Below the pieces are notes generated by a model, which saw only the letters and a program-made list of their open reading frames with translations, searched no databases and was not told where the DNA came from. This document shows, piece after piece, positions 38,046 through 59,991 of a DNA stretch of 64,000 nt; within the stretch, counting starts at the first letter, position 1, and each line of letters begins with the position of its first letter. Source of the DNA: Micromonospora sp. CCTCC AA 2012012 (lineage in GTDB: Bacteria > Actinomycetota > Actinomycetes > Mycobacteriales > Micromonosporaceae); assembly GCF_040499845.1 (NCBI RefSeq), contig NZ_CP159342.1:4650001-4714000 (forward strand), in the 5' to 3' direction. Position numbers and translations under genes: made by a program.

Positions 38046-39209
38046 TCAGTCGCCGGCCGTGGCCAGCGGACCGTCGATAGGGATGATCGCGGCGCGAGCC
38101 GCGCCGGTGTGTAACGCACTCAAGAGCCATACCCGATCCGAGTTGCTCTGGGGCCTAGTGAAGTACACCAGTGTGGCGTCGTGCAGTAGCGACTCATCAG
38201 CGTCCAGGCCGTTGCGGGTGGCGACGATGACGGAAGGTGGGCGGTCGCCACCCGCGACCGCCTTACCTTTCCGTGGCTCGTGCAACGTCAACTGCTCGGT
38301 GCGGACGCCGTGGGCGGCGAGGTGGTCCCGTACGTACTCGACCTCGGCGCGTAAGGGTCCGGTTACCACTATGACCGGGCCGGACCGGTGCCTTTGCAGG
38401 ACCGTTTCTGTCATTGCCTCCAGCCGGGGGTCTGGGCCGAGGGCTTCGAGGGAGTCCACGAGGTTCCACGCCATATCGATGTCGTTCATGTCGCCGTGGC
38501 TCGTCCCATGTGTACTGATGAGTCGCATTAGTGCTGAGTGCACAGCGGGGCGACTGCGGGTGCTGTTGCGCTTGTCCAGCAGCCTCGCTGCCTGTTCGAA
38601 GAGCGAGCGCTCGGCGGGGCTGAGCGACACCGGGTACGTCTCGGGATCGGGGTGCCGGTCACCGCTCATGGTGATGGCCTCGTCCAAGGTGAGCTCAACT
38701 AGCGTGGGGTGGTGGAGCCATGTGGGCAGACCCTGGCCCGGTTCTTGGTCAACCACGATGGTCTGGCGAGCCTGCTCGACGATGTCGAGAACGGCGGGCG
38801 TGGTTGAACTGTCCGGTCGAGGACCAGCGTCGAGAACAGCCAGGGCCAGGGGTAGCGATTTCAACGCGATCCGCACGGGACCGCGGCGGATGTCTAGCAC
38901 GGTGGTGAGGAAGATGCCCCGATGAGGCTCTGCCGGCAGTCGGTTAGCGAGTTCCAGGGCGAGGTCAGGCTTCAGGAGGCGTACCGGCGCGGCATTGCGA
39001 CTCTCGAGAACAAAGGCCCACTGCTCGAGCAGCGCACGACGCGACGACACGACCACGACGAAACCGGAAGCTGCGCTGCGCGCGGCGAATTCCGCCACTG
39101 TCGTCGTGATACCGGAGCCGACAGGGGCACGCAGCACGATGTGTCGCGCATCGCGGACACGGTCCAACCGCTCCGCAAGTAGGGCTTGGGCTGAAGCGCG
39201 AGCAGTCAT
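38046..39209 (-). CDS. Helicase-like protein with degenerate motifs
   Basis: 387 residues from ATG 39209, overlapping the CBS-HEPN stop (ATGA). The N-terminal half follows the SF2 helicase layout: HIVLRAPVGSGITTTVAEFA takes the place of motif I but the Lys of GKT is Ile; VVVVSSRRALLEQWAF resembles motif Ia; LALAVLDAGPRP is where DExH should be and has only the first Asp. The C-terminal half (GPVIVVTGPLRAEVEYVRDH, LLHDATLVYFTRPQSNSDRV) looks like a RecA2 domain without the arginine finger motif. It is therefore probably a non-hydrolysing nucleic-acid sensor or scaffold. The tight overlap implies a stoichiometric partner of the CBS-HEPN protein. Confidence 0.7.
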   Translation of the reverse strand: MTARASAQALLAERLDRVRDARHIVLRAPVGSGITTTVAEFAARSAASGFVVVVSSRRALLEQWAFVLESRNAAPVRLLKPDLALELANRLPAEPHRGIFLTTVLDIRRGPVRIALKSLPLALAVLDAGPRPDSSTTPAVLDIVEQARQTIVVDQEPGQGLPTWLHHPTLVELTLDEAITMSGDRHPDPETYPVSLSPAERSLFEQAARLLDKRNSTRSRPAVHSALMRLISTHGTSHGDMNDIDMAWNLVDSLEALGPDPRLEAMTETVLQRHRSGPVIVVTGPLRAEVEYVRDHLAAHGVRTEQLTLHEPRKGKAVAGGDRPPSVIVATRNGLDADESLLHDATLVYFTRPQSNSDRVWLLSALHTGAARAAIIPIDGPLATAGD

Positions 39210-39979
39210 TGCAACATCCTGACCCTGCGCTGCAGCCACACGCGGGCATTCATGACCAGGTCAACCTCGTCGGGTGTCACTGCATCGCGAAAATGGAAGA
39301 CCTTGTTGCGGACGTCGCGCACGGGTTCAAGCATGGAAAAGACCAGCTCGCGGCTGCTACCGAATGTTCGGCTAAAGACCCTGCCGAAACGCTCCGGGCC
39401 ATTGATCACCGAAATCAACTCGCCGAAGGTCAGGTCCTCCAGCCGTTCGGCCGGGGTGCCCTCCACGCCTGCCGGTCGGGCCGCAGCGACGAGTGCACTG
39501 AGCTCGTCCTCGGTGGCGCATGCTCGTCGGGCCAGGTAGCGCGTCGCCAGCTCGACGTCACGAACGATCATGAACTGCCTTGTCGCTGTCCACAGGTAGC
39601 TGCTGATGTCAGCGGTAGTGACAACGGCGAGCAGCCGCTCCTCATCACCCACCAACACCGCCCCCTTGTGGTGGATCGCCTCCAACGCGTCCTCGACCTC
39701 CGAGCCGGACCTGACGAACGTCAGGTCCTCAAGGAAATCGCCGACCGGATACGACAGGGGGTCGTCCTGGCGGCGCACGATCCCAAGATTCAGCGCGAGC
39801 GATCGGTAGCTGAACACACCCACCACCACATCGTTAGATGTCACCGGCAGCTGATCGAATCCGCAACGAGCCATCAGTGCGAGCGCCTTTGAGACCAGTG
39901 TAGTGACCTCAACAGTGGCAACCTCTTGGTCAGTCGGCACCACCTGGCCTACACGCAGGAAGTGATGCTGCGGCGTCAT
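39206..39979 (-). CDS. CBS-pair protein with C-terminal HEPN-like domain
   Basis: 257 residues. The first 135 form two CBS motifs (VSKALALMARCGFDQLPVTS, VVGVFSYRSLAL, then VEDALEAIHHKGAVLVGDEE, RLLAVVTTADISSYL), which bind adenosine nucleotides. The C-terminal half is helical and contains RNKVFH (Arg224, His229), the RX4H signature of HEPN ribonucleases, within VRDVRNKVFHFRDAV. HEPN proteins with RX4-6H cut RNA in toxin-antitoxin, CRISPR and abortive-infection systems. A nucleotide-sensing CBS pair fused to an RNase domain suggests activation by a nucleotide signal or energy state (inference). Confidence 0.75.
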   Translation of the reverse strand: MTPQHHFLRVGQVVPTDQEVATVEVTTLVSKALALMARCGFDQLPVTSNDVVVGVFSYRSLALNLGIVRRQDDPLSYPVGDFLEDLTFVRSGSEVEDALEAIHHKGAVLVGDEERLLAVVTTADISSYLWTATRQFMIVRDVELATRYLARRACATEDELSALVAAARPAGVEGTPAERLEDLTFGELISVINGPERFGRVFSRTFGSSRELVFSMLEPVRDVRNKVFHFRDAVTPDEVDLVMNARVWLQRRVRMLQ

Positions 39980-40035: not shown

Positions 40036-41151
40036 CTATCGGCCGGCTACGTCCCTCAGCCAGCCGTCTAGGCCGACGAGACGTCCAGACTCGATGTGTC
40101 CCAGCGCCCGCCTGATGCCCTTACCGCGGGCAGGAACGGGTGCTCGATAGGCAGCATGGGGTCCAGCCGGGTTGACGTGGACGACGGCGGAGAACAACGG
40201 GCTGTTCTGGCGGCGAACTTCGCAAGCCGCAGCAAGCCTGGCAGGGTCGAACTCGTTGGTGATGAGCACATAGTCGAAGTCCTCACCAGCCTCCTCAAGC
40301 TCGGCATAGTCCCGGAAATCGCTGACGAACTGCTCTTCCCGGTCGCTTCTTACACTCCACTTGCAGGAAACGAGCGTCCGCCTCCCGGTGGCCCCCTGAA
40401 CTAGCGCGAGATCCACCTGCCGCGGCTTGCTGTTGGCCCTTGGCCTGCGGAACCCCGGCACCTGGTGCAACAGCGGGCGGACATGAATGGTGTGGGTGCG
40501 GGCGATGGCCGGGATGCGGCTCAGGAGGGCACTCACAGTGTCCTCGAAACCTTCGCCGACCAGGTTCTTCCGCTTGTTCTCCAGGCCGACGTGGGCGTAG
40601 ATCCTCTCCGCCAGTTCCCTGAGGGCGGCGGGTGACGGCCGCTGCGCGAGGAACGGGTCAAGCACCTCGGCGATGATCGACTCCAGCTCAGGGTCCTCAC
40701 CCGGTTCGGGCAGCCCCATCCCTTCGTACGGCCGGCGCTGGCCAGAGACGGTATCCAGCAAGCGCGCACGATTCCGGGCGGCGACATGCGCCAGATCAGC
40801 GGTGGCGTGCCGAAAGAGGTAGTCGATGTGCTTGTCCAGCTCGCCCGGCGCGACCCCCAGGGCCTCCGCAGACCAGACATGGAAAGCAAGGCTGCGCGCG
40901 TACCAGGGGCGACCGGGCTGGCACTTGTCGCTCTCGTAGCAGTGGGCTAGGCCTGTGGTCCGGTCGATCCAGAGCAGCAGGCGGTAGACGTGTCGCCAGG
41001 CGTTCTCCGGGTTCACCGCCTCGGCGCTCGAGAAGTATCGTTTCAGGAGCCGGGCGCGGTTCTCCTCACCGAAGGCGCGGGCACTAGCTTCGCTCGTCGA
41101 GCCCCCGGGGGCACTACCCAGTCCCGGTATGGCCACCTGGTCTCCAACCAC
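40036..41151 (-). CDS. Restriction-endonuclease-like protein (PD-(D/E)xK)
   Basis: 371 residues. The N-terminal two thirds is helical; the nuclease core follows: an Asp in KPRQVDLALVQGATG (near residue 245) and a Lys in TLVSCKWSVRSDREEQFVSD (near 263), a variant PD-(D/E)xK site with Ser-Cys-Lys at the DxK position. It lies in a cluster with a Vsr endonuclease and a C5-methyltransferase, so it is most likely the restriction partner. The recognition sequence cannot be deduced. The start is uncertain: GTG 41151 has no strong ribosome site, and a later GTG at 41136 is possible. Confidence 0.7.
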   Translation of the reverse strand: MVGDQVAIPGLGSAPGGSTSEASARAFGEENRARLLKRYFSSAEAVNPENAWRHVYRLLLWIDRTTGLAHCYESDKCQPGRPWYARSLAFHVWSAEALGVAPGELDKHIDYLFRHATADLAHVAARNRARLLDTVSGQRRPYEGMGLPEPGEDPELESIIAEVLDPFLAQRPSPAALRELAERIYAHVGLENKRKNLVGEGFEDTVSALLSRIPAIARTHTIHVRPLLHQVPGFRRPRANSKPRQVDLALVQGATGRRTLVSCKWSVRSDREEQFVSDFRDYAELEEAGEDFDYVLITNEFDPARLAAACEVRRQNSPLFSAVVHVNPAGPHAAYRAPVPARGKGIRRALGHIESGRLVGLDGWLRDVAGR

Positions 41152-41339
41152 TCGCCGAGAGTACTAGGCATGCCCATCCTTCGGTGTCCCGCACCGCAGG
41201 CCGAGCTGTCCATGCGCATGCCGTGGCAGGTGGCGCACGTTGTGCAATAGTTGCTCAGCAGCCAATCCGGGACCGAGGCGTCTCGTCGCCCGTTGCGATC
41301 GGGTTGGATTCAGGAGACCTGGACAGAGTGTACGGAGCT

Positions 41340-41771
41340 ATGCCAGACCACTTGTCGAAAGCGGGACGCTCACGTGTGATGGCCGCCATCCGTTCCAAGA
41401 ACACCAAGCCCGAGCTCATGCTCCGGCAGGCATTGAGAGCCTCGGGCGTGACAGGCTACCGCATTCACCTCGCGACTCTCCCCGGAAAGCCGGACATCGC
41501 CTTTACGCGCTGGCGCTTGGCTGTATTCGTGGACGGTGTTTTCTGGCACGGGCACCCGGACCATTTCAAGCCGCAGCTGGCCAGTCCCTACTGGAGGGAG
41601 AAGATCGCACGGAACCAGGAAAGGGACGTCAAAAACGACGCCGCGCTGGCGGCCATTGGCTGGACGGTCTTAAGGGTCTGGGACACGCACGTCAAGGAAG
41701 ACCTTGGTGATGTTACCCGGACGGTGACCGATGCACTTAGGGCGCTGGGTCGGCCTGACGTGCCGCGATGA
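41340..41771 (+). CDS. vsr: Very short patch repair endonuclease Vsr
   Basis: 143 residues with the Vsr pattern: RSRVMAAIRSKNTKPELMLR, LPGKPDIAFTRWRLAVFVDG, FWHGHPDHF (metal and catalytic His) and WTVLRVWDTHVKEDL. Vsr nicks next to T:G mismatches made by deamination of 5-methylcytosine and so protects cells that carry a C5-methyltransferase. Such an enzyme is encoded convergently, 3 bp away. ATG 41340 fits the family start; a GTG at 41328 is in frame and has AGGAGA upstream. Confidence 0.9.
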   Translation: MPDHLSKAGRSRVMAAIRSKNTKPELMLRQALRASGVTGYRIHLATLPGKPDIAFTRWRLAVFVDGVFWHGHPDHFKPQLASPYWREKIARNQERDVKNDAALAAIGWTVLRVWDTHVKEDLGDVTRTVTDALRALGRPDVPR

Positions 41772-41774
41772 TGG

Positions 41775-43205
41775 CTAGCCGCTGGCCTCAGCAAGACCGA
41801 CCAACGTCTCGATGGGCGGCGACTGCTGCGGCTGCCCGCCCTGCTCGCCCTGCTCGCGCCGAGCGATGATAAGGGTTCTCACCCGTTGTGCGATGGCCTC
41901 TGCCAGCAGCGGTGGCACGGCGTTGCCCACCTGCCGGTAACGAGAATGTGCCTGCCCTCCGTCGATGCGTCCAGGCAGGGCACCACGCCGCGGGTCGGTG
42001 CTGAAGACGAAGTGGTCAGGGAAAGACTGCAACCGCGCGAACTCCCTGACGCTGAGGGCGCGTGGCATCCGGTAGTGGTAAGCCGAGTCGGCCTTCGTGT
42101 TCAGCGTCCAGGCCCAGACTGCGGGGTGCAGGCGCCGATATGCATAGAAGTGGGCACGCCCGAGCTTGCCGCTGTCAGTACTAGGTCCCCACTTCTCGCC
42201 ACTGATGTAGCGAGCAGTCAGGGCCTCAGTAAGATCACGATGATTGCCGCCGGCTGGGATCCCCTTTAGTCGCGTGACGGTGTCTGAATTGATTCTAGGA
42301 ACGCTGACGTTCCATATCTTGCCCTCCAGCTGCTTCCGCATCAGGCGCTGGTATGCCGATTCAGCTTCCTTCATTTCGCCAATGGGCATCGCCTCCTCGC
42401 GTCGCCCCGCCTTGAGGTTCCGCAGGTCGGAAATCGCCTGGTCAGCCGAGACGACGGCGAGATTATCCGGGTCCTCCAGAGCCTTCAACAGTGCGGTTGC
42501 CCGCATTTCGTCTCGACGCGTCTCGAGAGCGTACTTGCCCTTCCCGTGGCGAACGAGGGCGAGATGGAGAGTCGCATGAGTACCCTCGAAAACCGGCGGC
42601 GTCTCACCAAGGTCGCTTCGTAAGCCTACGAATACCAGACGCTTGCGGGTCTGCGGAACGCCGAAGTCGGCGGCGTCGAGAAGGTTCGGCTGCACATTAT
42701 AGGCGCCGCCAAGCTCGAGGTCTTCTTTCACTTGCTCCAGGACGCCCATCTGGGCCATACCCGGTACGTTCTCCATGACAAATGCGAGCGGCCGGATCTG
42801 CCCGACTGTTTTCACGAATTCCCGGTACAGCGAATTACGCGGGTCGTCGATAATCCTTGAATGGTTGCGAACTTGCGAGAAGGCTTGGCACGGCGGCCCA
42901 CCCACAACCACGTTAACGCCCCGCCCCACCTCGATGATGCGTTCATGCACCTCAGGTAGCCGAATATCGCCACAAATGGCTTGGGCGTTCGGGAAGTTGA
43001 GGGCGAACGTGGCGCACGCGTCCGGGTCGATGTCGCTGGCACCCACGATTTCAAAGCCGGCCTGCTGGAACCCTTGGGACAGGCCGCCAGCCCCAGCGAA
43101 GAGGTCCAGCACGCGCGGCTGCTGCACGGACAGGAAGTCGACTTCAGCGCACGACGCCACGTCGGCTTCGAGTCCAGGCAATGGCAGTGCCAGTTGCGTG
43201 ACCAC
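41775..43205 (-). CDS. DNA (cytosine-5) methyltransferase
   Basis: 476 residues from GTG 43205 (AAGGGGG just upstream). Motif I VLDLFAGAGGLSQGF, motif IV GGPPCQAFSQ with the catalytic Cys, motif VI VMENV, motif VIII QTRKRLVFVG, motif IX/X region VREFARLQSFPDHFVF and RYRQVGNAVPPLL are all present. The long target-recognition region lies between VIII and IX. It transfers a methyl group from SAM to a cytosine and should protect the element or host from the neighbouring nuclease. Confidence 0.92.
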   Translation of the reverse strand: MVTQLALPLPGLEADVASCAEVDFLSVQQPRVLDLFAGAGGLSQGFQQAGFEIVGASDIDPDACATFALNFPNAQAICGDIRLPEVHERIIEVGRGVNVVVGGPPCQAFSQVRNHSRIIDDPRNSLYREFVKTVGQIRPLAFVMENVPGMAQMGVLEQVKEDLELGGAYNVQPNLLDAADFGVPQTRKRLVFVGLRSDLGETPPVFEGTHATLHLALVRHGKGKYALETRRDEMRATALLKALEDPDNLAVVSADQAISDLRNLKAGRREEAMPIGEMKEAESAYQRLMRKQLEGKIWNVSVPRINSDTVTRLKGIPAGGNHRDLTEALTARYISGEKWGPSTDSGKLGRAHFYAYRRLHPAVWAWTLNTKADSAYHYRMPRALSVREFARLQSFPDHFVFSTDPRRGALPGRIDGGQAHSRYRQVGNAVPPLLAEAIAQRVRTLIIARREQGEQGGQPQQSPPIETLVGLAEASG

Positions 43206-44099
43206 GCAGCCCCCTTCAACCCGCCCCGTCACGCCGCGTACGCGCGGTGTTACCGCAGGGCCAATTCTGGTCCCGACCGCACCTAAGTCACGGCCGCCGC
43301 GCCGGATGACGCGCCCGCCATATTTGATCCTCTCCTACACCCGTTCGACAAGTCATCGCCCGGCTCGCCCACCAGTCCGTGGGAGCGATCACCCTTATGG
43401 CCACCGGCGCGCGCCCCTAACTGGCTCGTCCGCGCCGCTCCGGGCTGGATAGAACGCGTTCCCCTGTCACCGCCGGCGCGAGGATCTCTGCCGCCGGCTG
43501 CCAGCACGCCGCCCTCGTTCATGGCTGACAGGGGGAGCATGCGACGTGGTGGCCGGCCATGCTCTCGACGACCATTGGGCCTGCGTCGGCCCCTCCTGGT
43601 GATCGCCGTCCCGCGGCCTAAAAGTCGCTGGCCTCTGGGGCTCGCCACCGGGTGGCGACCGCATGGGCTCAGTCCGCCGCACCTACCAGCGCGAACGGCA
43701 GCGATGTCCATCGGAAGGCTCTGATACGCGTTGATGAGGTCGACGATGATGCCTCTGTCCCACGGAATGCTACTCGGGGCAGGTTGGTGCGACAGAGTGG
43801 TTCGTCGACTGGACAGGGTGGCCACGGGGGGAGCCGCCCTGCCCAGCGATGTCATCACGGTAGAACCGGCCGTCGACGCAGGGCAACCCCCGAGGCGACG
43901 CAATGTAACGCTATCTGCACGGATTGTTCAACCCGAGCGTTCCCGGCCCTCGCCGTACGTGTCGCCGTGGCCATTCGGTCAACTCGTCATGATGTGGGGC
44001 CGAGGGAGGACTCAGCCTCAACCCCTGTCGGCGTGGAACCTGCCTCGACCAGTGTCGGGTTCCCTTTTAGGGACAGTGTTTGCTCGACGTCTGGGGTGT
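43206..44099 (+). other. 894-bp stretch with no confident gene
   Basis: Open frames occur on both strands (for example plus 43731-44636 and minus 43283-43903), but their translations are low-complexity Arg/Pro/Gly-rich and lack family features. GC content is lower and codon bias weak. Reads as decayed or intergenic DNA between the modification cluster and gene remnants. Confidence 0.4.
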
Positions 44100-45093: not shown

Positions 45094-45690
45094 TCAGGTT
45101 GTGTCGGGTTCGAGGGTCAGGCCGGTGTGGGCGAGGAACCCGTCGAGCAGGTCGGGGCGGTACTGGATGCTCTTGAGCCGGTTGCGGATGATCGCGAGGA
45201 GGTGGTCGACGCCGGTGACGGCGAGGTCGCCGATGCTGCGTTTCAGGTGAGACCAGACGCCCTCGATCGGGTTCAGGTCGGGGGCGTAGGCGGGTAGCCG
45301 GATGACGTGAAGCCAGTCCCGGGCGTCGATCATCTGCCGCATAGCGGCGGAGACGTGGGTGTTCAGGTTGTCCCAGACGCACACGATCGGGCCGCCGAGT
45401 TGTTGGTGGGCGGCGTCGAGCAGGGCGATGTAGTCACGTTCGCTGAAGCTGCGTCGTTCGTTCTTGCGGCCGCGGTGCACGATCGTGCGGTAGATCAGCC
45501 GGGACCGCTCGCCGGGCCGGTAACAGGTCAACCCGGCGATCGAGACCCGACCGGACCCCTTGCCGGACACCGGGACGACCGAGGTGCGGCCACGTCGGCC
45601 CAGGTGCGGACCTTGGGTGGGCGCAGCGTCTGACCGGCCTCGTCCGCGAAGACCAGCCACGCCTGCCGCTGCGCCGCTACCGTTTTCCCG
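45094..45690 (-). pseudogene. IS630 transposase, DDE part with a second frameshift
   Basis: The first catalytic Asp (LVFADEAGQTLRPP) is in one frame, while RRGRTSVVPVSGKGSGRVS, VCVWDNLNTH (second Asp) and APDLNPIEGVWSHLK (Glu) are in another. The switch near 45605 fits loss of one G in the codons for RTWG. Even with a programmed slip at the first junction this second break would prevent a full-length enzyme, so the element is probably inactive. Confidence 0.65.
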
Positions 45691-46168
45691 CAGGCCACGT
45701 CTCCTTACGCCACGCGGCGATCGCGGCCTCGTCACGCTCGACCGCACGGTGTTTGGGCACCTGCACCGACCAGCCCAGCCGGTACATCACATTCGCGGTG
45801 CCGCGCAGCGTGTAGCGGACGCGGAACATCCGGGTGACCAGGTCTGACACCCGCGCCAGGGTCCACCGCTGATCGGCACCGAACCCGTGCGCCGCCGGGC
45901 CGTTTTCCAAGGCATCGGCCAGGCGCTGCAATCGGGCCTCATCAAGGCGACAGCGAGACCCGCCAGGCCCCTTCGAGGCCAGAGCGTCCTCACCACCGGC
46001 CCGCCACCGCTTACGCCAGCCATACACCGCGGTCTGCGACACCCGCAGCCTGCGCGCGACCTCCGGCACCGACACGCCCTCAGCGAACCAACCGGCCGCC
46101 CGCCGCCGTACCACCTCACGCTTCGCCCGCCCCCGCGAGGACAGCCCACCTCCGTCGGGATACGTCAT
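45677..46168 (-). CDS. IS630 transposase, N-terminal part
   Basis: 163 residues. HTH segments VPEVARRLRVSQTAVYGWRK and the second winged region with LADALENGPAAHGFGADQRW are typical of IS630 ORF A. The frame stops at TAG just after KETWPAGKR. The sequence GGAAAAC there would allow a -1 slip into the frame that reads KTVAAQRQAWLVFADEAGQT, which carries the first catalytic Asp. Such slips are used by some IS630 members. Confidence 0.75.
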   Translation of the reverse strand: MTYPDGGGLSSRGRAKREVVRRRAAGWFAEGVSVPEVARRLRVSQTAVYGWRKRWRAGGEDALASKGPGGSRCRLDEARLQRLADALENGPAAHGFGADQRWTLARVSDLVTRMFRVRYTLRGTANVMYRLGWSVQVPKHRAVERDEAAIAAWRKETWPAGKR

Positions 46169-48627: not shown

Positions 48628-49887
48628 TCAACCTCTGTAACTTCTGTCCGCATTGACTGCCTTCAAATGGCGAATGCGGTCGCTTATCGGAGGCATGTGC
48701 CCCGCCGTCTTGCCGCCGGCTATAAGGTTGAGTATTGGTCGGTCAGTGACAGTGCCAAGTAGCTGCCGGATCCGTTCAGGTGGCCAGTGTAGTTCCTGCG
48801 CCAGCGCGGTGATGGTCAGCCCGTGCTCGGAGGCCAGTTCGAAGGCCTTTCTTAGGATCGTCGGCTGTTCGCCGGGGAAGCCATCGATGGGTTCGAGGGC
48901 CGGCTTGGACTGATTGAGGCGTTGGTAAGCGCGAGTCGCAGTGGTGTCGGTGTAGAGACCTACTTCTCGGCAGCGGTAGATCAAACTCTGGATCGACGTT
49001 CCCCATGTCCGCTGCAGCTCAGCGAACGCCGCGAAGTTCACCCTTGCGGGCAGGAGTGGTGTGATGCTGTCGCGCGGAGTGAGGAATTCCGCGGCAAAGG
49101 CGTCTGCGTCCCGTTCATGCCTGGAGTCACCGGGAAGAGCGTCGGCGTGGAGTACGAGGTGGGCGAGTTCGTGCGCGGCGGTGAAGCGCTGCCGGTATAC
49201 ATCCTGGGATCGATCGCGACTGATAATAATGAACGGCCGCGGTAGCCGTGAGGTCGAGAAAGCATCCACGGTACGGAAGTCGCCATCGGCTGGCGCATGG
49301 ACGACGACGATGCCGTGGACCTCGAGAGTGCGCACGAGGTGCGGAATGGGCGCGGTGCCGAGATTCCAGTGCTGGCGAAGAGCTCGGGCGGCTTGGACTG
49401 GCTCGGTGGGAAGGCTTGCGCCGGGATGAATCTCGCCGCCGGCGAACCCAGGAAGGTCTACGTGGGGCAGGAAGACGCGCCGTTCGAGGGCGTAGATGAG
49501 TTCCCAGACCTGCTCGGTGAAGGAGACGGCCTTGGCGCGCTGGTATGAGCGTGTCTCACGGAGATGGCGGAAGTGCGCTGCAGAGGAGTCGAGGCGGGCA
49601 TAGGGACGCCCGACCTGGAAGAAGCCAACGGGGTAGCCGAGGTGTTCGGCGAGGGCGATCAAAATCTCGGGTCGTGGCCGGGCCCCTGATTCGTACTGGC
49701 CGATGGCCGCAGCGCTGACCCCGACTCGGTCGGAGAGTTCCTTCTTGGTTAGCCCGGCGAGCTGGCGAGCCTGTGTCAGGCGTGCCGAGTCGAACTGCCT
49801 GGCGACAGCACTGGCTGACCCTGAGGGCAACTCCACGGGGAGACCGCCGGCAGAGAACAGGTCATCGGGCTCGTCAGTTCTGGGCAT
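48628..49887 (-). CDS. XRE-HTH and ImmA/IrrE metallopeptidase fusion
   Basis: 419 residues. An XRE HTH occupies about 36-90 (LTQARQLAGLTKKELSDRVG, VSAAAIGQYESGARP). An ImmA/IrrE domain follows with zinc motif FTAAHELAHLVLHADAL (about 235-251) and a downstream Glu region (RHERDADAFAAEFLTPRD). ImmA proteases cleave repressors to trigger mobile-element genes, and IrrE-type proteins respond to DNA damage. The start overlaps the end of the upstream 262-residue gene by 14 bp. Located divergent from the pPIWI-RE operon, it is a good candidate for its regulator (inference). Confidence 0.87.
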   Translation of the reverse strand: MPRTDEPDDLFSAGGLPVELPSGSASAVARQFDSARLTQARQLAGLTKKELSDRVGVSAAAIGQYESGARPRPEILIALAEHLGYPVGFFQVGRPYARLDSSAAHFRHLRETRSYQRAKAVSFTEQVWELIYALERRVFLPHVDLPGFAGGEIHPGASLPTEPVQAARALRQHWNLGTAPIPHLVRTLEVHGIVVVHAPADGDFRTVDAFSTSRLPRPFIIISRDRSQDVYRQRFTAAHELAHLVLHADALPGDSRHERDADAFAAEFLTPRDSITPLLPARVNFAAFAELQRTWGTSIQSLIYRCREVGLYTDTTATRAYQRLNQSKPALEPIDGFPGEQPTILRKAFELASEHGLTITALAQELHWPPERIRQLLGTVTDRPILNLIAGGKTAGHMPPISDRIRHLKAVNADRSYRG

Positions 49888-50662
49888 CGCTTCGCTGTTG
49901 GTGGTCGCTATGTTCGGCTACGGGGCTGACGGTGGCCTGCTCAGTGGCGGTACGGGGGCGCAGCGTCGGGCTGGCCAGCTCCGCCTGGTCGAATCGCGGG
50001 GACGCGGTTGGGGCCGACGGCTGGGTTACCAGGCGAAGCCCAGGGATCGGGTCTGCGGACGGGACGAGGAGGGGTTGTGCGGATACCCAGCTCGCTGCGC
50101 CGGTCTGGCTCACGCTGATCTGGCCCCATCCGATGTTGAGCAGCCCGTGCCGCTCGTGCGCCGCGTAGTAGATGATCACGATACCGTCTGGTTCCAGCCC
50201 TCGCAGAACGTCGGTGGCATGGGCGTCCGACTCGTACTCCATCCCTTCGAAGGCCGGCTGCTCATGATCGGGTTTGGGGCCGAAGAGCCGCGCCAGCTCC
50301 AGCGTCGTCTTGTTGATCTTCTTCAGGGCGCGAGGGCTGTCGTAGGCGGTCGCGAGGTCCTTCGCGTACTCAACCGGCAGCACGGCGACGTTGTTGATGA
50401 CAACGATGCGATAGCTCTTGCCTAACGGGCGGACTGTCTGGGCGCCGGGGACCTCGCCGAGGTGGTTGACCAGTTCCTCGTACCGCGCGGGCCAGCCTCC
50501 GCCGAAGGCGTGGCGCGACGTCAGGCGGACCGCGTGGTGGCCGTCCATCTGCCGTCCGACGGCGGCCTGAATGGCCGCCGGAATGGCCTCCGTCAGCGTG
50601 GCTGCCACGTCGCGGCCGAACAGGGACGCTGCCCACGCTGCCGGCCGAATCTTCTTCGACAC
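49874..50662 (-). CDS. Hypothetical partner of the XRE-ImmA protein
   Basis: 262 residues from GTG 50662 with GGGGAG upstream. The first 170 residues form a globular domain (SKKIRPAAWAASLFGRDVAA, YRIVVINNVAVLPVEYAKDL, EPDGIVIIYYAAHERHGLLN) and the last 80 are Pro/Ala/Thr-rich. Not recognised. The 14-bp overlap with the XRE-ImmA gene implies coupled synthesis; it could be the substrate, toxin or cofactor of that protease. Confidence 0.72.
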   Translation of the reverse strand: MSKKIRPAAWAASLFGRDVAATLTEAIPAAIQAAVGRQMDGHHAVRLTSRHAFGGGWPARYEELVNHLGEVPGAQTVRPLGKSYRIVVINNVAVLPVEYAKDLATAYDSPRALKKINKTTLELARLFGPKPDHEQPAFEGMEYESDAHATDVLRGLEPDGIVIIYYAAHERHGLLNIGWGQISVSQTGAASWVSAQPLLVPSADPIPGLRLVTQPSAPTASPRFDQAELASPTLRPRTATEQATVSPVAEHSDHQQRSDAQN

Positions 50663-50697
50663 GGTTCTCCCCTCATGCTTTACCTGCGTGCAGAAGG

Positions 50698-50796
50698 CTA
50701 ACATCTGTGCTTTAGTTTTGAGCGCGATCACGCCACTTTGGTCGCGGTGAGCGTGTTCCCGCAGATCACGCCGCCTGCTGTGTGGCGTGATCTGCG
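50698..50796 (+). promoter_or_regulatory. Operator region between the XRE-ImmA and pPIWI-RE operons
   Basis: GATCACGCC occurs at 50726-50734 and 50764-50772 and inverted at 50784-50792. The last two form perfect 13-bp arms CGCAGATCACGCC (50760-50772) and GGCGTGATCTGCG (50784-50796). To the left CTAA (50698) and TTAG (50712-50715) form a separate short inverted repeat near the minus-strand start. This density of repeats between divergent operons suggests two regulator sites. Confidence 0.65.
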
Positions 50797-50896
50797 GTGC
50801 GCCGCGGTAGCGGCGGATGCCGAGCGGGCCGCACATGGTGTCCGGTTGCGGCGTTGCGGGTCGCGCACGATGAGCGGCCGGGGAGGAAGGGGACGC

Positions 50897-52072
50897 ATGA
50901 CGGCGGATCTGACCAGGTTCGGCCGGGACGCAGTCGTGACCACGGTGACGCAGGCCGCCAGTGTCTGGATGTCGCCGGGAACCCCCGGCGAGCGCTGGCG
51001 GCAGGTGGCTGAACTGCACGGACGGGTCGCACTGGCGTACCTGGCGCACGGTGAACCTCTGCTGCCCTTGGTGGCCTTCACCGACCTGTTGACCGGCCCG
51101 CTGTCCGGGCTTCTGCCGGACGCGCTGAGGGAAGCGTGCGACGAGGTCTTGTTGGTGGAGGACGGACAGCTGAGTGCTGCTGCCGTTGACCTGCTGATGG
51201 AGAACCTCGCGCCGTCGATGACGGCCTCCGATGTCGTCGGCTGGTCGGTGCCGCGTCTGAGCGCGGAGAAGGTGCAGGGCTGGCTCTACGGACAGATGCT
51301 GGCGACCGGTACGGAGGAGGGGTACCGGCGGGCGCGACGGACCGTCATCGAACACGCGGCGGGGGAGATGTCGGAGGTGATCGACGCGATCAAGGCCGCA
51401 GGACTGCCCCGCGAGGGCCTGGTCGAGGAGATCCCCGCGTGGGCGTGGGTGGCGCACGAGGGAGAGCACTACTGGTTCGGGTGCCCTGTGTGCCGGTACC
51501 CGATGCGGTACCAGCTCGGTCGGCTTGCCTGTGCCTACCCGCCGCACACGAAGGCTCTCGGCGGTTCGATCACCGTGAAGGCGGCGAAGGGCCGCCCACC
51601 GGTGGCCGGCGCGTGGAACGTCGAGCGTGCCGCGCAGTTGGGCGGACCACAGGTCACCACTGCGGTTCCGGTCAAGGGCCAGGTGTGCCTCGTCCGGCCG
51701 GCTTGGCGGTACTCGACCATCCCCGGTTGCGAGGAGGTCCGTCTGCACCGCGAGCTCGAGATGATGCCGGGCGTCACCGCGAGACTGTGGCCGCACGTCG
51801 ACCGGTACGACCTGGAGGTGAGGGCACCAGGACGACGGCGGCCCTGGCGGGTCGATGTCAAGGACTACACCGACCCCGCGCGGCTGGCCAACGAGCTGCT
51901 GCGTCGGGGCGGCATCGGCGAGTCTGACCTGTTGATCGTCGTCCCCGACTACCGGGCGGGCCATGTGGCGGTCCTCAACGAACGGCTGCGCTTTGCCACC
52001 GGATCACGGCGCCGGTTCGCCACGACGTCTCACCGATTCCTCACTGAGGTGAAGAGGGCCGCAGCCAGATGA
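50897..52072 (+). CDS. pPIWI-RE-associated REase with zinc-ribbon-like domain
   Basis: 391 residues from ATG 50897, with GGGGAGGAAGGGGA before it; an in-frame ATG at 50738 would include the operator repeats and is rejected. The middle has a Cys cluster (WFGCPVCRYPMRY, LACAYP). The C-terminal nuclease core shows DRYDLEVRAPG and WRVDVKDYTDP, a D...DxK arrangement of the PD-(D/E)xK fold, then SDLLIVVPDYRAGHVAVL. It matches the first gene of the three-gene pPIWI-RE island described by Burroughs, Aravind and colleagues (REase, helicase, Piwi). Overlaps the helicase start by 4 bp. Confidence 0.85.
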   Translation: MTADLTRFGRDAVVTTVTQAASVWMSPGTPGERWRQVAELHGRVALAYLAHGEPLLPLVAFTDLLTGPLSGLLPDALREACDEVLLVEDGQLSAAAVDLLMENLAPSMTASDVVGWSVPRLSAEKVQGWLYGQMLATGTEEGYRRARRTVIEHAAGEMSEVIDAIKAAGLPREGLVEEIPAWAWVAHEGEHYWFGCPVCRYPMRYQLGRLACAYPPHTKALGGSITVKAAKGRPPVAGAWNVERAAQLGGPQVTTAVPVKGQVCLVRPAWRYSTIPGCEEVRLHRELEMMPGVTARLWPHVDRYDLEVRAPGRRRPWRVDVKDYTDPARLANELLRRGGIGESDLLIVVPDYRAGHVAVLNERLRFATGSRRRFATTSHRFLTEVKRAAAR

Positions 52073-55000
52073 GCAACCGTTCGCGTTTCCACAGAACCGC
52101 CAACCGGTTCCTCGTCGGACCGTCGCTACGTCTGGCGCTCGGCCTGGCCGAACAGCTATTCCCCACCGAGACCTGGGAAGGCGCGCCCGCGGTGGACCCC
52201 CGCGACGCGCGGTTCCTCCTCTCCGGCCAGCTCGGGGTGTGGAGCCTCTGGCGCGACGGCCTCACCGCCACGCAACGACATGCGATCGACCGTCTCATCC
52301 ATCTGCGCCCTCGCCGTCTGGCCACAGAAGGTGGCCTGCGCGTCAGCCTCGACGAGCACCTGCGCAACAACCGATCGCCCCGCTACCTTGAGGCCGGAGA
52401 CTTCCTGCAGGTGATAGACGGTGTGCCGGTCGGTGATCTGATCACAGCTGCGCTGCAGGAGCTGGAGGATGCCTCATCCCCGCTGCGCGTCCCCCCAGAG
52501 GCGCTGGCCGACAGGCGCTACAGCTCGTCGGTCTTCCTCGCCGGCCCCAGCCGCGACGAGTTCCGGCGCAACACCTACCTCATCCCGCGGGCGCCGATGC
52601 CCTACCCGCCCGTCCCGGTTCTGGACGCCACCGCGCCAGCCGAGGTGGTGGCCGACCTCGCGGACATGCACGCCACCGCCGAACTGATCGACAAGAAGCG
52701 GGGTGACGATGCCTTCCGCCTGGCGGAGGTCCTGGACGGATTCTCGCGGAAGCTGCGGACGCCACTGGGCCAACCCGTCGAACGGCTGAAGCTCGCGGCA
52801 GGGCCCCTTCAGCTCATGATCGCTCCCACTGGTTCCGGCAAGAGCGTCTGGATGCGTGTCGCCGCCACCCACCTCGCCAGCTACCGAGGAGGCCGCCGCA
52901 CCGTTGTCCTGCTTACCCCTGATGTCGAGAGCACGCTGGATCTTGTTGCGGCCATCCGCAGTGACCTCGCGGCGCTGAACCTCGACATCCCCGTTGTCGC
53001 ACTCATGTCCCACCGACGGCTCATCGAGGTGGCCGTCCAGCGCACTAACGACGCACCGGAGGATCCGGCCGGTGCCAGGTGGACCTGGCAGGAGCTCGGC
53101 TACTCCTGCCTGCTGAGCGACGAAGAAGGCGCCGCATGGCAGCCCGGCCAGGAACCCTGCACGGATCTGCACGAGCCCGGCGTCGAAGGACGCCACCGAT
53201 GCCCTCTGATCGGAGCCTGCGAGAAGTGGGCGCCATGGCGGCAAGCCGCCGGCCCAGCCAAGATCATCGTCACCAACCACGCCTACTTCCAGCAGGGCTC
53301 GGTGCCGTTTCCCGTCATCACGAACGGCACACTCCACGGACGGATGAGCGCGCAGGAGCTGCTGCTGCGGCGCGCCGACATCGTCCTTGTCGACGAGGTC
53401 GACGCCTTTCAGGGACATGCGGTCGCTCAGTCCGGCCGCACCCTCGTCCTGGCCCGTCGTGACACGTCGAAGCTGCTCCTGGAGAAGCTCGACGACCAGC
53501 GCAAGGAACAGGTCGAATCCGACAACGTGCCGGGCGAACTCGAACTCGCCTTCCAGCGGGCCATCCACCGCGTCGAGTTCCTCTCCGAGCGCTACCTGGC
53601 CGCCGTCGTCAACGGGTTCATCGACCCGCAGGACCCGCTCGGCCCCAAACAGGCCAGGCTGCACCTGCCACGCCGATGGGACAACCTCCTCGCCTGCCGC
53701 CTCTTCGGCCTCAACGAACTCGAAGACCGCCCCAGCGACGACCAGCACGACAGGTTCAAATCCCTGTTCACCCAGAACGAACCCGACCCTGACGCGCTAC
53801 CCGCCGGCTGGGCGGACCTACGCAAGGAACTGCGCCTCGTCGTCGCCGACGAACCGGAATCCGACCTGATCCACAAAAGAAGCCAAGGCATCATCAGCGC
53901 GATCCAAACGATCACCGCGCCCACCACCGACGAGGGCGAACCGGACACCGACGTCGACCTGAACGAAACGGACGGCCCCTCTCAGGCAGGAAAGGACGAC
54001 GATCCAGCAGACCCCACCGTCTCGGCTTGGCAGCTCCAGACCGCCCACCTTCTCCTACGCAGGGCGTTCCTCGGCGAACTCCAGCAAGGGCTCGCCGAAC
54101 TGGAAGCCCTACTGCCGCTGATGCGCGACAGCGGCATGCGGCTCGCCGACGACGTCGAAGCCGCGCTGGACCGAGCCCCCTCCTGGCAGGCAACACCCGA
54201 AGGACCGATCGGCCGAACGGTCTTCGGATTCGCCGTCACCGGCGACCCGGAGAGCCGCTCCGACCGGCAGTTCACCGCAGAGATCCTCTCCGGCGACCCG
54301 CACGCCTACACCGCAGACCTCGGAATCACCACCGCTCCCGCGCTCACAGGCGCGCCCAGAATCATCGTCGGACTCTCCGCGACCGCCTACCTACCCGGTT
54401 CCCCCACCAACCACGTCCATGCCGACGTCGCCTGCTACTACCCCGACAACGCCGGCACTGGCACTGGCACTGGCACTGGCACTGGCACTGGCACTGGCAC
54501 TGGCACTGGCACTGGCAGACTGACCGTCAGCAACGCGTCCGTCAACGACCACACGACCAACCGCGGGATCGTCATCTCCGGAGCAGCCCGCAACCGTAAG
54601 GCCCAACTACTCGAAGGCATCGGATCCGGCCTCTGGGACCAGATCCTCGAACAGAGACTGCGGGACCTGCACGACCACCGGGACGCCGAACGCCGCGCCC
54701 GTGCCCGGGTCCTACTCGTCACGAACTCCTACAACCAAATGCTCGCCCTCTGCCGCGGCCTGATCGCCGGGGGCGCCCACCGCACCCGCATCGCCGTCGC
54801 CGTCCCCGCCGGTGACCGCCGCGGCCTGCAAATCCCCGACGACGTACTCGCCATCCCCGCCAGCCGGCTGCGGACCTTCCCGGGCACGGGCAGGGACGTG
54901 CTGATCTCACCTTTCGCACGGGTCGCCCGCGGGCTCAACATCGTCGTCGGCCACCGGTCCGCGCTCGACTCCATCTGGGTATGCGTCCGACCCATCAAGC

Positions 55001-55440
55001 TCATCGACGAACCGTCCGCACTGGTTGCCCACACCGGTGCCCACGCCCGCCGCAACCGGCACCCCAGCGAGGACCCGCGCAAGGAACTCGACGAACGCCA
55101 CCGCATCGCCGCCAAACATCTGGAGCTCATCAACAGGTCCAACCCCGCCTTCGGGCGCCTGCCCCCCGACGTGCGAACCGCGATCTTCGCCGACGTCCTG
55201 GCCGACCTGATCCAACTCGCCGGGCGCGCCCGCCGTGGTGGCACCAACACAACTCTTCACCTGGTCGACAACGCCTTTCACCGAGGAGGCGCCGCACCGG
55301 GCAGCGACTTCGCCTCCCTCATCCGCAACCTCCACCAGCGATGGCGCGACGACAACCAACTGGAGCAGGTCCGCTCCATCTACGGCACCACCATCGACGC
55401 GTTCTTCATGTTCGCCGGCATCAACGACAGGAACCCCTGA
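52069..55440 (+). CDS. pPIWI-RE-associated DinG-type helicase
   Basis: 1123 residues. N-terminal unique domain of about 230 residues, then motif I MIAPTGSGKSVWMRV (about 248-262), four Cys between motifs I and II (near 346, 364, 377 and 383; YSCLL, EPCTDL, HRCPLIGAC) as in the iron-sulfur domain of XPD/DinG, motif II DIVLVDEVDAF (about 438-448) and motif VI DLIQLAGRARRGG near 1046. It should unwind DNA or RNA-DNA hybrids for the Piwi nuclease. A (Gly-Thr)10 run near residue 796-815 comes from a hexanucleotide repeat. ATG overlaps the REase stop. Confidence 0.88.
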   Translation: MSNRSRFHRTANRFLVGPSLRLALGLAEQLFPTETWEGAPAVDPRDARFLLSGQLGVWSLWRDGLTATQRHAIDRLIHLRPRRLATEGGLRVSLDEHLRNNRSPRYLEAGDFLQVIDGVPVGDLITAALQELEDASSPLRVPPEALADRRYSSSVFLAGPSRDEFRRNTYLIPRAPMPYPPVPVLDATAPAEVVADLADMHATAELIDKKRGDDAFRLAEVLDGFSRKLRTPLGQPVERLKLAAGPLQLMIAPTGSGKSVWMRVAATHLASYRGGRRTVVLLTPDVESTLDLVAAIRSDLAALNLDIPVVALMSHRRLIEVAVQRTNDAPEDPAGARWTWQELGYSCLLSDEEGAAWQPGQEPCTDLHEPGVEGRHRCPLIGACEKWAPWRQAAGPAKIIVTNHAYFQQGSVPFPVITNGTLHGRMSAQELLLRRADIVLVDEVDAFQGHAVAQSGRTLVLARRDTSKLLLEKLDDQRKEQVESDNVPGELELAFQRAIHRVEFLSERYLAAVVNGFIDPQDPLGPKQARLHLPRRWDNLLACRLFGLNELEDRPSDDQHDRFKSLFTQNEPDPDALPAGWADLRKELRLVVADEPESDLIHKRSQGIISAIQTITAPTTDEGEPDTDVDLNETDGPSQAGKDDDPADPTVSAWQLQTAHLLLRRAFLGELQQGLAELEALLPLMRDSGMRLADDVEAALDRAPSWQATPEGPIGRTVFGFAVTGDPESRSDRQFTAEILSGDPHAYTADLGITTAPALTGAPRIIVGLSATAYLPGSPTNHVHADVACYYPDNAGTGTGTGTGTGTGTGTGTGTGRLTVSNASVNDHTTNRGIVISGAARNRKAQLLEGIGSGLWDQILEQRLRDLHDHRDAERRARARVLLVTNSYNQMLALCRGLIAGGAHRTRIAVAVPAGDRRGLQIPDDVLAIPASRLRTFPGTGRDVLISPFARVARGLNIVVGHRSALDSIWVCVRPIKLIDEPSALVAHTGAHARRNRHPSEDPRKELDERHRIAAKHLELINRSNPAFGRLPPDVRTAIFADVLADLIQLAGRARRGGTNTTLHLVDNAFHRGGAAPGSDFASLIRNLHQRWRDDNQLEQVRSIYGTTIDAFFMFAGINDRNP
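54454..54513 (+). repeat. Ten perfect GGCACT units inside the helicase gene
   Basis: Sixty bases made of ten identical 6-bp units, encoding ten Gly-Thr pairs. Flanking residues are AG before and GR after. Copy changes stay in frame, so the repeat would vary linker length rather than switch the gene off. Confidence 0.95.
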
Positions 55441-57900: not shown

Positions 57901-58050
57901 ACCGCGCCTCTGTCACCGCGGCTGCGCATTCCTCGTGCTCGTTAGCTGCGACAAAGCGTGGAACGCTCTACCAATATTCGTCTGAACAATCTTGCCAGCG
58001 CTCGGCGTGGACTGAGGTGCTCGGCCCTCCGGAGGGGAGTTCCCACCAGC

Positions 58051-59985
58051 ATGTCCACAGCACCGACCACGCTCAGCGCGCCGACCACGGGCAGCGGCAT
58101 GTATCTCGCCGGCCTGAGGCTCACGAACTTCCGCTCGTGTCGCGGCGTGGAGATCACGCTTCAGCCCGGCCTGACGCTGCTCGTCGGCGATAACAACTCC
58201 GGCAAGTCCAACTTCATCGACGCGATGCGGCTGCTGACCACGCCGCTGAGCGGGCGACGGGTCCGCTACCTGGAGATCGACGACGTCTCCACCGGCGCGG
58301 ATGGGCCGATCGAGATCGTGGGCGAGTTCGATGGTCTGACGCGGTTTCAGCAAGGCCAGTACATCGGCGCGCTCGATATCGCGACGAACAAGGCGTACTA
58401 CACGACCCGGTTCCGGCCGGACGTGGACGTACCCCGCCGGTCCAAGGTGGAAAATTTAGTCGGCCGGGCCGCCGGGCCCGACGCCGAACCTGAGAAGCGC
58501 GACCAGATCCGGCACGTCTACCTGGCGCCGCTGCGCGACGCCAAGCGTGAGCTGGACTCCGCCACCGGCAACCGCATGGCGCTCATCATCAAGTACCTGA
58601 CGAGCGAGGCCGACCGCACGGACTTTCTCGACCAGGCGATCGACGGGCTGCGCAAGCTCGAGGAGCACGATGTCATCACCGGCACCCAGAAGCGGCTGCA
58701 GGAGCACGTCAGCGACCTCACCGATCCGGTCCGTGGGCAGGTGATCGGTCTGAGCTTCCGCGACGTCCGGCTGCAGCGGCTCGCTCGCGGCCTGCGCCTA
58801 AAGATGGCCGAGCACGGCGTCGACCTCGCCGACATCGAGGACTCGGGCCTCGGCTACGCCAACCTGCTCTATATGGCGTCGGTCATCATCGAGTTGCGCA
58901 ATGCCCAGGACGCCGAGCTTACGCTCTTCCTCGTAGAGGAGCCGGAGGCCCACCTTCACCCGCAGCTGCAGGCCGTGCTGCTGGATTACCTCCAGGAGCA
59001 GGCCGTCAATTCGCTGCGCGACGACACGGACGGCCCGGCGGGTCGCATCCAGGTGGTCGCCACGACCCACTCGCCGAACCTGGCCAGCGCGGTGGGCATC
59101 CGCAGCATCGTGGTCCTGCGCACCCAGGAGACCCCGACACCGAAGATCACCGAGGATTCCTCGGCCACCGAGGTCAAGATGGCGCCGACGGGCATCCAAC
59201 GCGGCACCGCAGCGATCGCCCTGTGCGACATCGACCTGACCGATGAGGAACGCCGCAAAATCGACCAGTATCTCGACGTGAGTCGTGCCGAGCTGCTGTT
59301 CACCCGGCGTGCGGTCCTTGTGGAGGGTGTCTCCGAAGCCGTCATCCTGCCGCCGCTCGCACGCCACTGCGTCCTCGATAAGACGGCAGCCAACTACGGG
59401 GCGAAGTGCCGCGAATTCCGGGCCGTTTCGATCATTAGCATCGGCAGCGTCGACTTCGGCCCGTACCTCAAGCTCCTCCTGCAGCAGGTCAACGGCGTTC
59501 GGCTCGTCGACCGGCTGGTGGTCATCACCGACGGCGACCCCGACGTCGATGACGAGGTCGACCAGGACGACGACCTCAACGAGAAGCTGAAGGCCGGCGA
59601 GCCAGAGACGGAGGACGAGCCGGCCGCCACACTCAGCCGCAAGGACCGGCTGGAAGAGATCGCCACCCAGCTGGGCGCCGACTCGATACTCGCCGTGTTC
59701 GCCGCCGAGTTCACGCTCGAGGCCGACCTGATGAACCCGTTCACGGTCAACGGCCCGCTGCTGGAGACCGCGTTCAAACGCCAGAAGCCCAGGTCGGGTA
59801 AGTTCTGGAGCACGCTCACGACGAGCACGAACCCGGCGGAGGTCTTCTACCGCAAGCTGCGCACCACCAAGCGGTACATCGGCAAGGGCGAGTTCGCCCA
59901 CGACGTCGCCGAGCTGATCCAGAGCGGCGGCACGTTCGAGTGCCCCGCCTACCTCACACGGGCCATCCAGTCGGCGATGCGGTAA
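58051..59985 (+). CDS. gajA: Gabija protein GajA (OLD-family ATPase-TOPRIM endonuclease)
   Basis: 644 residues from ATG 58051, with GGAGGGGAG upstream. ABC-type ATPase: Walker A LLVGDNNSGKSNFIDAM (about 44-60), signature-like SGLGYANLLYM, Walker B LFLVEEPEAHLHPQLQ (about 291-306) and VVATTHSPNLAS. TOPRIM domain: VLVEGVSEAVILP (Glu, about 421-433) and VVITDGDPDVDDE (acidic pair, about 489-501). GajA is a site-specific nicking endonuclease, held in check by nucleotides and activated when phage replication depletes them. Follows the Piwi gene by 202 bp and precedes gajB by 6 bp. Confidence 0.9.
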   Translation: MSTAPTTLSAPTTGSGMYLAGLRLTNFRSCRGVEITLQPGLTLLVGDNNSGKSNFIDAMRLLTTPLSGRRVRYLEIDDVSTGADGPIEIVGEFDGLTRFQQGQYIGALDIATNKAYYTTRFRPDVDVPRRSKVENLVGRAAGPDAEPEKRDQIRHVYLAPLRDAKRELDSATGNRMALIIKYLTSEADRTDFLDQAIDGLRKLEEHDVITGTQKRLQEHVSDLTDPVRGQVIGLSFRDVRLQRLARGLRLKMAEHGVDLADIEDSGLGYANLLYMASVIIELRNAQDAELTLFLVEEPEAHLHPQLQAVLLDYLQEQAVNSLRDDTDGPAGRIQVVATTHSPNLASAVGIRSIVVLRTQETPTPKITEDSSATEVKMAPTGIQRGTAAIALCDIDLTDEERRKIDQYLDVSRAELLFTRRAVLVEGVSEAVILPPLARHCVLDKTAANYGAKCREFRAVSIISIGSVDFGPYLKLLLQQVNGVRLVDRLVVITDGDPDVDDEVDQDDDLNEKLKAGEPETEDEPAATLSRKDRLEEIATQLGADSILAVFAAEFTLEADLMNPFTVNGPLLETAFKRQKPRSGKFWSTLTTSTNPAEVFYRKLRTTKRYIGKGEFAHDVAELIQSGGTFECPAYLTRAIQSAMR

Positions 59986-59991
59986 GCGGGC

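Follow-up and report, generated by a model that had tools for sequence, protein, structure and literature searches.

The region analysed here, referred to as the window, is a 64,000-nucleotide stretch of the genome of Micromonospora sp. CCTCC AA 2012012 (contig NZ_CP159342.1; 6.73 Mb in one contig). On its minus strand two genes are joined by an ATGA overlap. The first codes for a protein with a CBS pair and a HEPN-like domain (CBS-HEPN), and the second for a helicase-like protein, termed the partner in the following. The features of the gene pair are, all on the minus strand:

39206-39979, minus: first gene, coding for the 257-aa CBS-pair/HEPN protein (open reading frame, Pfam, NCBIfam match, structure model)
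39578-39958, minus: CBS pair, residues about 8-134
39857-39859, minus: Phe41, aligned with Tyr157 of the anti-phage protein DS-11
39608-39619, minus: T121-x-x-D124 of CBS2
39209-39574, minus: HEPN-like helical domain, residues 136-257 (HEPN_Swt1 matches in pair members; helices in the model)
39293-39310, minus: R224-N-K-V-F-H229, predicted catalytic motif
39206-39209, minus: ATGA stop/start overlap
38046-39209, minus: degenerate superfamily-2 (SF2) helicase-like partner, 387 aa (motifs, alignment, fold comparison)
39105-39128, minus: partner motif I remnant APVGSGIT, Lys replaced by Ile34
39006-39059, minus: partner motif Ia region with the invariant Q63-W64-A65
38817-38840, minus: partner motif II remnant, Asp127 without Glu

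The original prediction, made from the sequence alone, had given the coordinates, lengths and residues of both genes correctly, including the position of the overlap and R224/H229. The ATG at 39209 yields a partner of 387 residues, and an in-frame upstream GTG would yield 397. A promoter scan returned none. The terminator scan, with 5 candidates against 1.7 expected, was set aside as evidence.

Assignment of the first protein is based on several lines of comparison. The CBS family PF00571 of Pfam is matched above its cut-off (E 1.2e-10). Residues were counted in 33 relatives chosen by score, and all of them keep the T-x-x-D of CBS2, which we take to be the usual ribose/phosphate-binding signature. 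The position aligned with Tyr157 is Y or F in 32 of the 33, being Phe41 in the window. RNxxxH is likewise present in 33/33, and R224-x4-H229 conforms to the R-x4-6-H motif of the HEPN superfamily. The family HEPN_Swt1 (PF18731) reaches 16.0 bits in the window protein, below the gathering cut-off of 27.5; at E<=0.1 it is matched by all 10 pair-type members (best 2.8e-5) and, when the HEPN region is scanned alone, by 10 of 24 relatives. In the structure model, the C-terminal part is predicted to be helical, with RNKVFH inside a long helix. Matches listed by the VIA-align fold comparison are CBS rows covering residues 4-134 only, so that the HEPN domain is not reached, and the lack of a HEPN chain among them is no evidence against a HEPN fold. 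A sequence-profile search of the PDB found no HEPN (3 chance rows), and no family of PADLOC-DB (2023) was matched by either protein of the pair at E<=1.

The closest characterized system is DS-11 (PMC13092281), an anti-phage system made of a single CBS-HEPN protein, which was tested in E. coli. According to that report, defence depends on Tyr157, for which an adenine contact is proposed, and on the HEPN catalytic residues, and the adenine derivative that switches on the RNase is left open there. The pair-type protein shares with DS-11 (NF053863, DefensePredictor) a HEPN domain with RNxxxH behind the CBS pair, the aromatic residue at the Tyr157 position and T-x-x-D in CBS2. Against model NF053863 the window protein scores 100 bits, under the 260-bit cut-off, and four other pair members score 98-119 bits, compared with 405 bits for the E. 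coli protein of locus L066. All five pair members tested match the model from the CBS pair (position 63-72) to near its end. They lack the N-terminal segment of DS-11 (model positions 1 to ~60). Gene number differs as well: DS-11 is a single gene, and the pair type has an overlapping second gene at every locus found (13/13). Comparison of the partner with the N-terminal segment of DS-11 revealed no relation (probability 0.3 percent). As judged from these matches, the CBS-HEPN effector is a divergent relative of the known DS-11 kind. CBS-HEPN fusions were moreover listed in the 2013 HEPN survey, which suggests a stress-type RNA role for them (PMC3710099). In this respect the original prediction of an undescribed system is not supported, its effector being related to a validated one. 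As a side observation, of 5426 complete E. coli genomes 127 carry the DS-11 gene of L066 with an identity of >=99 percent, and in 126 of them the match covers >=80 percent of its length.

Other relatives differ in what precedes the CBS pair. Matches starting at model position 1 were obtained for L066 and for L096, L004 and L005, the last three from the same genus as the window. In L004 and L009 (genomes G012 and G025, same genus) a RAMA domain, a reader of modified DNA, is fused in front of a CBS-HEPN part that shares RNxxxH with the pair type. In L005 (G022) the CBS-HEPN protein carries an N-terminal segment of ~190 aa that has no Pfam match. In contrast to the pair type, the RAMA-fused type is not accompanied by a helicase partner at its 20-kb loci (L063, L065). 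Solo CBS-HEPN proteins of ~255 aa are found at haloarchaeal plasmid loci, including L067 and L068; in both, a similar uncharacterised gene follows, split in two in L067. The haloarchaeal solos (L067, L068, L070, L071, L073) have no helicase-like partner in their 12-kb loci. The two tested against the model, L067 and L073, lack the DS-11 N-terminal segment as well, and together with the pair members start at model positions 63-83. With DS-11 types matching from position 1, RAMA fusions, and pair and haloarchaeal types that lack the segment, CBS-HEPN would seem to be a unit to which various front ends are joined.

Distribution of the pair was assessed in genome samples. An exact-word scan of the genome collection disclosed 8 loci with a relative, and a homologue of the partner lies directly downstream in 8/8, as it does in L003. 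When 160 genus genomes were scanned with the partner profile, 8 strong matches (243-543 bits) and 2 weak P-loop matches (31-32 bits) were obtained. The 8 genomes with a strong partner match are also those with a strong match to the CBS-HEPN profile (8 matches, 337-472 bits), and the two genes are adjacent in every one. Another 10 genomes of the genus have DS-11-type matches of 60-83 bits and no partner match at E<=1e-6. In larger samples, where 6 candidates per genome (order, class) or 4 (phylum) were scored and a copy may have been missed, the partner was found in 2/298 genomes of the order, with 4 weak matches besides, and in 1/396 of the phylum, the window itself. The window was also the only one of 394 class genomes with a pair-type CBS-HEPN, in addition to four DS-11-type matches. 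A tally of genomes matched by the DS-11 profile (255 of 296 in the phylum) was discarded because the hits are nearly all generic CBS proteins and 13 of 14 control genomes also give a signal; besides the window, only G494 and G012 reach 100 bits in it.

In total, 13 pair loci were collected (the window, G298, G1019, G032, G975 and L022-L029), of which L022 and L023 are nearly identical. Named hosts are Micromonospora (L022-L024), Georgenia, Rhodococcus, a Pseudonocardiaceae bacterium, Kutzneria and Nocardioides. The loci span five actinobacterial families, the fifth presumably being Nocardioidaceae, to which we assign the Nocardioides host. L022-L024 are the closest named relatives of the window, and G1013, G1011 and G973 of the same genus give copies with profile scores equal to theirs. 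A stop/start overlap exists in all 13 loci, as ATGA or GTGA, or as 11 bases in L025. The Nocardioides copy (L029, 10001-11922) has both genes broken. No match to partner profile A2 was obtained in 12 DS-11-type or haloarchaeal loci (L062-L073, 12-20 kb). Relatives were not found in phage records, none of 66 pattern stretches in viral contigs was confirmed, and the partner was not found in plasmids. That the two genes are conserved as a pair, as originally predicted, is borne out by the overlaps and by the same 8 of 160 genus genomes; homologues mostly unlinked to each other would have spoken against it, and they are always linked in everything searched.

A tree was built from 33 CBS-HEPN rows scoring >=45 bits and matching to the C-terminus, with identical rows removed. 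L029, with its broken frames, was excluded from alignments A1-A5, from the tree and from the distance comparison. The 12 pair rows lie on one side of a single branch with support 98/98, and the pair label needs one change on the tree, compared with 10.1 for shuffled labels. The nearest branch is that of the haloarchaeal solo proteins (midpoint root, long branches flagged). Pairwise distances of the two proteins correlate with r 0.97 over 11 rows (0/5000 permutations as high), partly owing to a two-group split; within the six distant rows r is 0.76. Four Micromonospora pairs (dS 0.34-1.08, moderately saturated) gave dN/dS values of 0.066-0.083 in CBS-HEPN, and those of the partner, at 0.24-0.37, are higher by a factor of three to five. 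Both genes are thus under purifying selection, and the partner, at these values, is a working gene. Together with the overlap in 13/13 loci, this makes the pair more than a chance association. Faster divergence of the partner fits either a sensor or an antitoxin.

The fold predicted for the partner comprises two RecA domains of superfamily 2, with similarity extending end to end. It has this architecture and motif Ia in common with SF2 helicases such as SWI2/SNF2, Hef, XPB and the RIG-I-like proteins, and motif Ia QWA is invariant in 10/10 rows of alignment A2. These features bear on the alternative that CBS-HEPN is a toxin and the partner only its antitoxin, with no nucleic-acid sensing, so that loss of the partner would free the toxin. 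HEPN toxins with a neutralising neighbour gene are well known, and the gene overlap, strict co-occurrence and fast partner divergence would all agree with such an arrangement. However, retention of the whole two-RecA core and of the invariant QWA exceeds what would be expected of a neutraliser, and the one-gene relatives manage without an antitoxin. On balance, we consider a mere toxin-antitoxin unit unlikely.

In contrast to SF2 helicases, most partners lack the motif I Lys, and the motif II Glu and motif VI are missing. The window partner has GSGIT at motif I and LDAG at motif II, and the arginine finger of motif VI is not visible, so of the hallmarks of an active SF2 helicase the two RecA domains are present and motif I GKT, motif II DExD/H and the motif VI arginine are not. 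The original prediction of a helicase-like protein without its ATPase residues is confirmed in these points. Because L022 and L023 carry the same partner, the 13 loci provide 12 distinct sequences. In 10 of these an Ile, Val or Leu stands in place of the Lys, and the motif II Glu is missing from all 12. Since a complete GSGKT is kept in the other two (L022 = L023, and L024; 3/13 loci), nucleotide binding is not lost everywhere. This, and the two outer glycines of the motif I loop kept in 12/12, would suit a partner that still binds ATP and acts as a nucleotide-dependent switch or weak motor. In view of the prevailing Lys replacement, the general absence of the motif II Glu and the lack of motif VI, we give this explanation little credence.

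A link between HEPN and an SF2 module is not without precedent, as the 2013 survey also lists HEPN fused to SF2 helicases in restriction-modification (R-M) systems (PMC3710099). The arrangement there is a fusion, whereas here the degenerate helicase is a separate protein accompanying CBS-HEPN. A literature search, with most subscription papers and supplements outside its range, disclosed no earlier description of a degenerate helicase accompanying CBS-HEPN; CoCoNuTs (PMC11090510) and a BREX survey (PMC12839542) are treated in other papers that it listed. The helicase partner is probably a new element, and the pair is probably unpublished as such.

The following neighbours were annotated in the window:

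40036-41151, minus: candidate endonuclease of an R-M set
41184-41771, plus: Vsr of the R-M set
41775-43232, minus: C5 methylase of the R-M set
45094-45747, minus: DDE transposase piece inside the island
48628-49887, minus: RmrA, RosmerTA antitoxin-like (E 1e-97)
52069-55440, plus: PprDinG-like protein (E 8e-93)
57958-61752, plus: Gabija GajA/GajB, complete-looking (PADLOC E 5e-216 for GajA, 2e-144 for GajB)

The protein coded at 40036-41151, 371 aa long and located between the methylase and the pair, has no Pfam, PADLOC or NCBIfam match; inspection by eye suggests a PD-(D/E)XK endonuclease candidate. RmrA is, we assume, a component of RosmerTA, and the long frame upstream of it (together 48628-51964, minus), also lacking a Pfam or PADLOC match, may hold the toxin. 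RmrA located next to the pair in L022 is 94 percent identical to that of the window, and the PprDinG-like protein of L022 is 96 percent identical.

Elsewhere, a scan of 10 hand-chosen proteins from 7 loci (L022, L025-L029 and L061) detected SspC/SspD in L022 and a SIR2 protein in L025. L028 gave a TPR match only and L061 a TnsB match only, and the scanned neighbours of L026, L027 and L029 (2, 1 and 1 proteins) gave no defence match. Defence neighbours are not universal among pair loci. The two pair genes are the only ones common to all 11 loci compared. The R-M set accompanies the pair in 3/13 loci within the DNA fetched (window, G298, G1019). Of the predicted defence island beside an R-M set, the island stands, with Gabija, RosmerTA and PprDinG, while the R-M set seems incidental.

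A non-defensive stress regulator, in which CBS senses adenine nucleotides and HEPN tunes RNA stability, would follow the role proposed for CBS-HEPN fusions in PMC3710099. Such a regulator is hard to reconcile with sporadic presence (8/160 genus genomes), with a G+C of 0.64 in the pair against 0.72 in the left 37.9 kb of the window, with neighbourhoods that are unrelated between loci and have defence genes nearby, and with the phage protection by DS-11 reported in PMC13092281; we regard it as quite improbable. The pair might also serve the adjacent R-M set as a back-up suicide component, since the window, G298 and G1019 have the pair, the candidate endonuclease, Vsr and the methylase in the same order. 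This explanation is very improbable, and membership of the pair in that set was rejected, as 10/13 pair loci are without the set within the DNA fetched.

We propose instead, at about even chances, a two-gene anti-phage module made of a DS-11-like, nucleotide-gated HEPN RNase and a catalytically lost SF2 helicase serving as ATP-independent sensor or regulator. The effector would be the CBS-HEPN protein, a putative endoRNase that is probably dimeric, its activity set by an adenine nucleotide or derivative bound in the CBS pair. The partner, an SF2 core without catalysis, would form a complex with the effector, sense by binding nucleic acid independently of ATP and regulate the RNase, and would take the place of the fused N-terminal segment of one-gene DS-11 relatives; we infer that it replaces that segment functionally. 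Binding of a phage nucleic-acid structure by the partner during infection would release or activate the RNase and stop growth, and the pair would in this way provide defence. As the one-gene relatives function without a partner, its role may instead be to inhibit the RNase and not to sense.

More tentatively, and with some doubt, CBS-HEPN RNases may be viewed as a nucleotide-gated effector platform with interchangeable sensors: a fused N-terminal segment, a fused RAMA domain, or a separate dead SF2 helicase that would read nucleic acid without ATP. Having the putative sensor as a separate, always-linked protein means that sensor and effector can be expressed, mutated and swapped individually, and the pair offers a test case for a catalytically dead helicase in bacterial immune sensing. 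If the platform interpretation is true, the bacterial partner would follow the same logic of sensing as RIG-I-like helicases.
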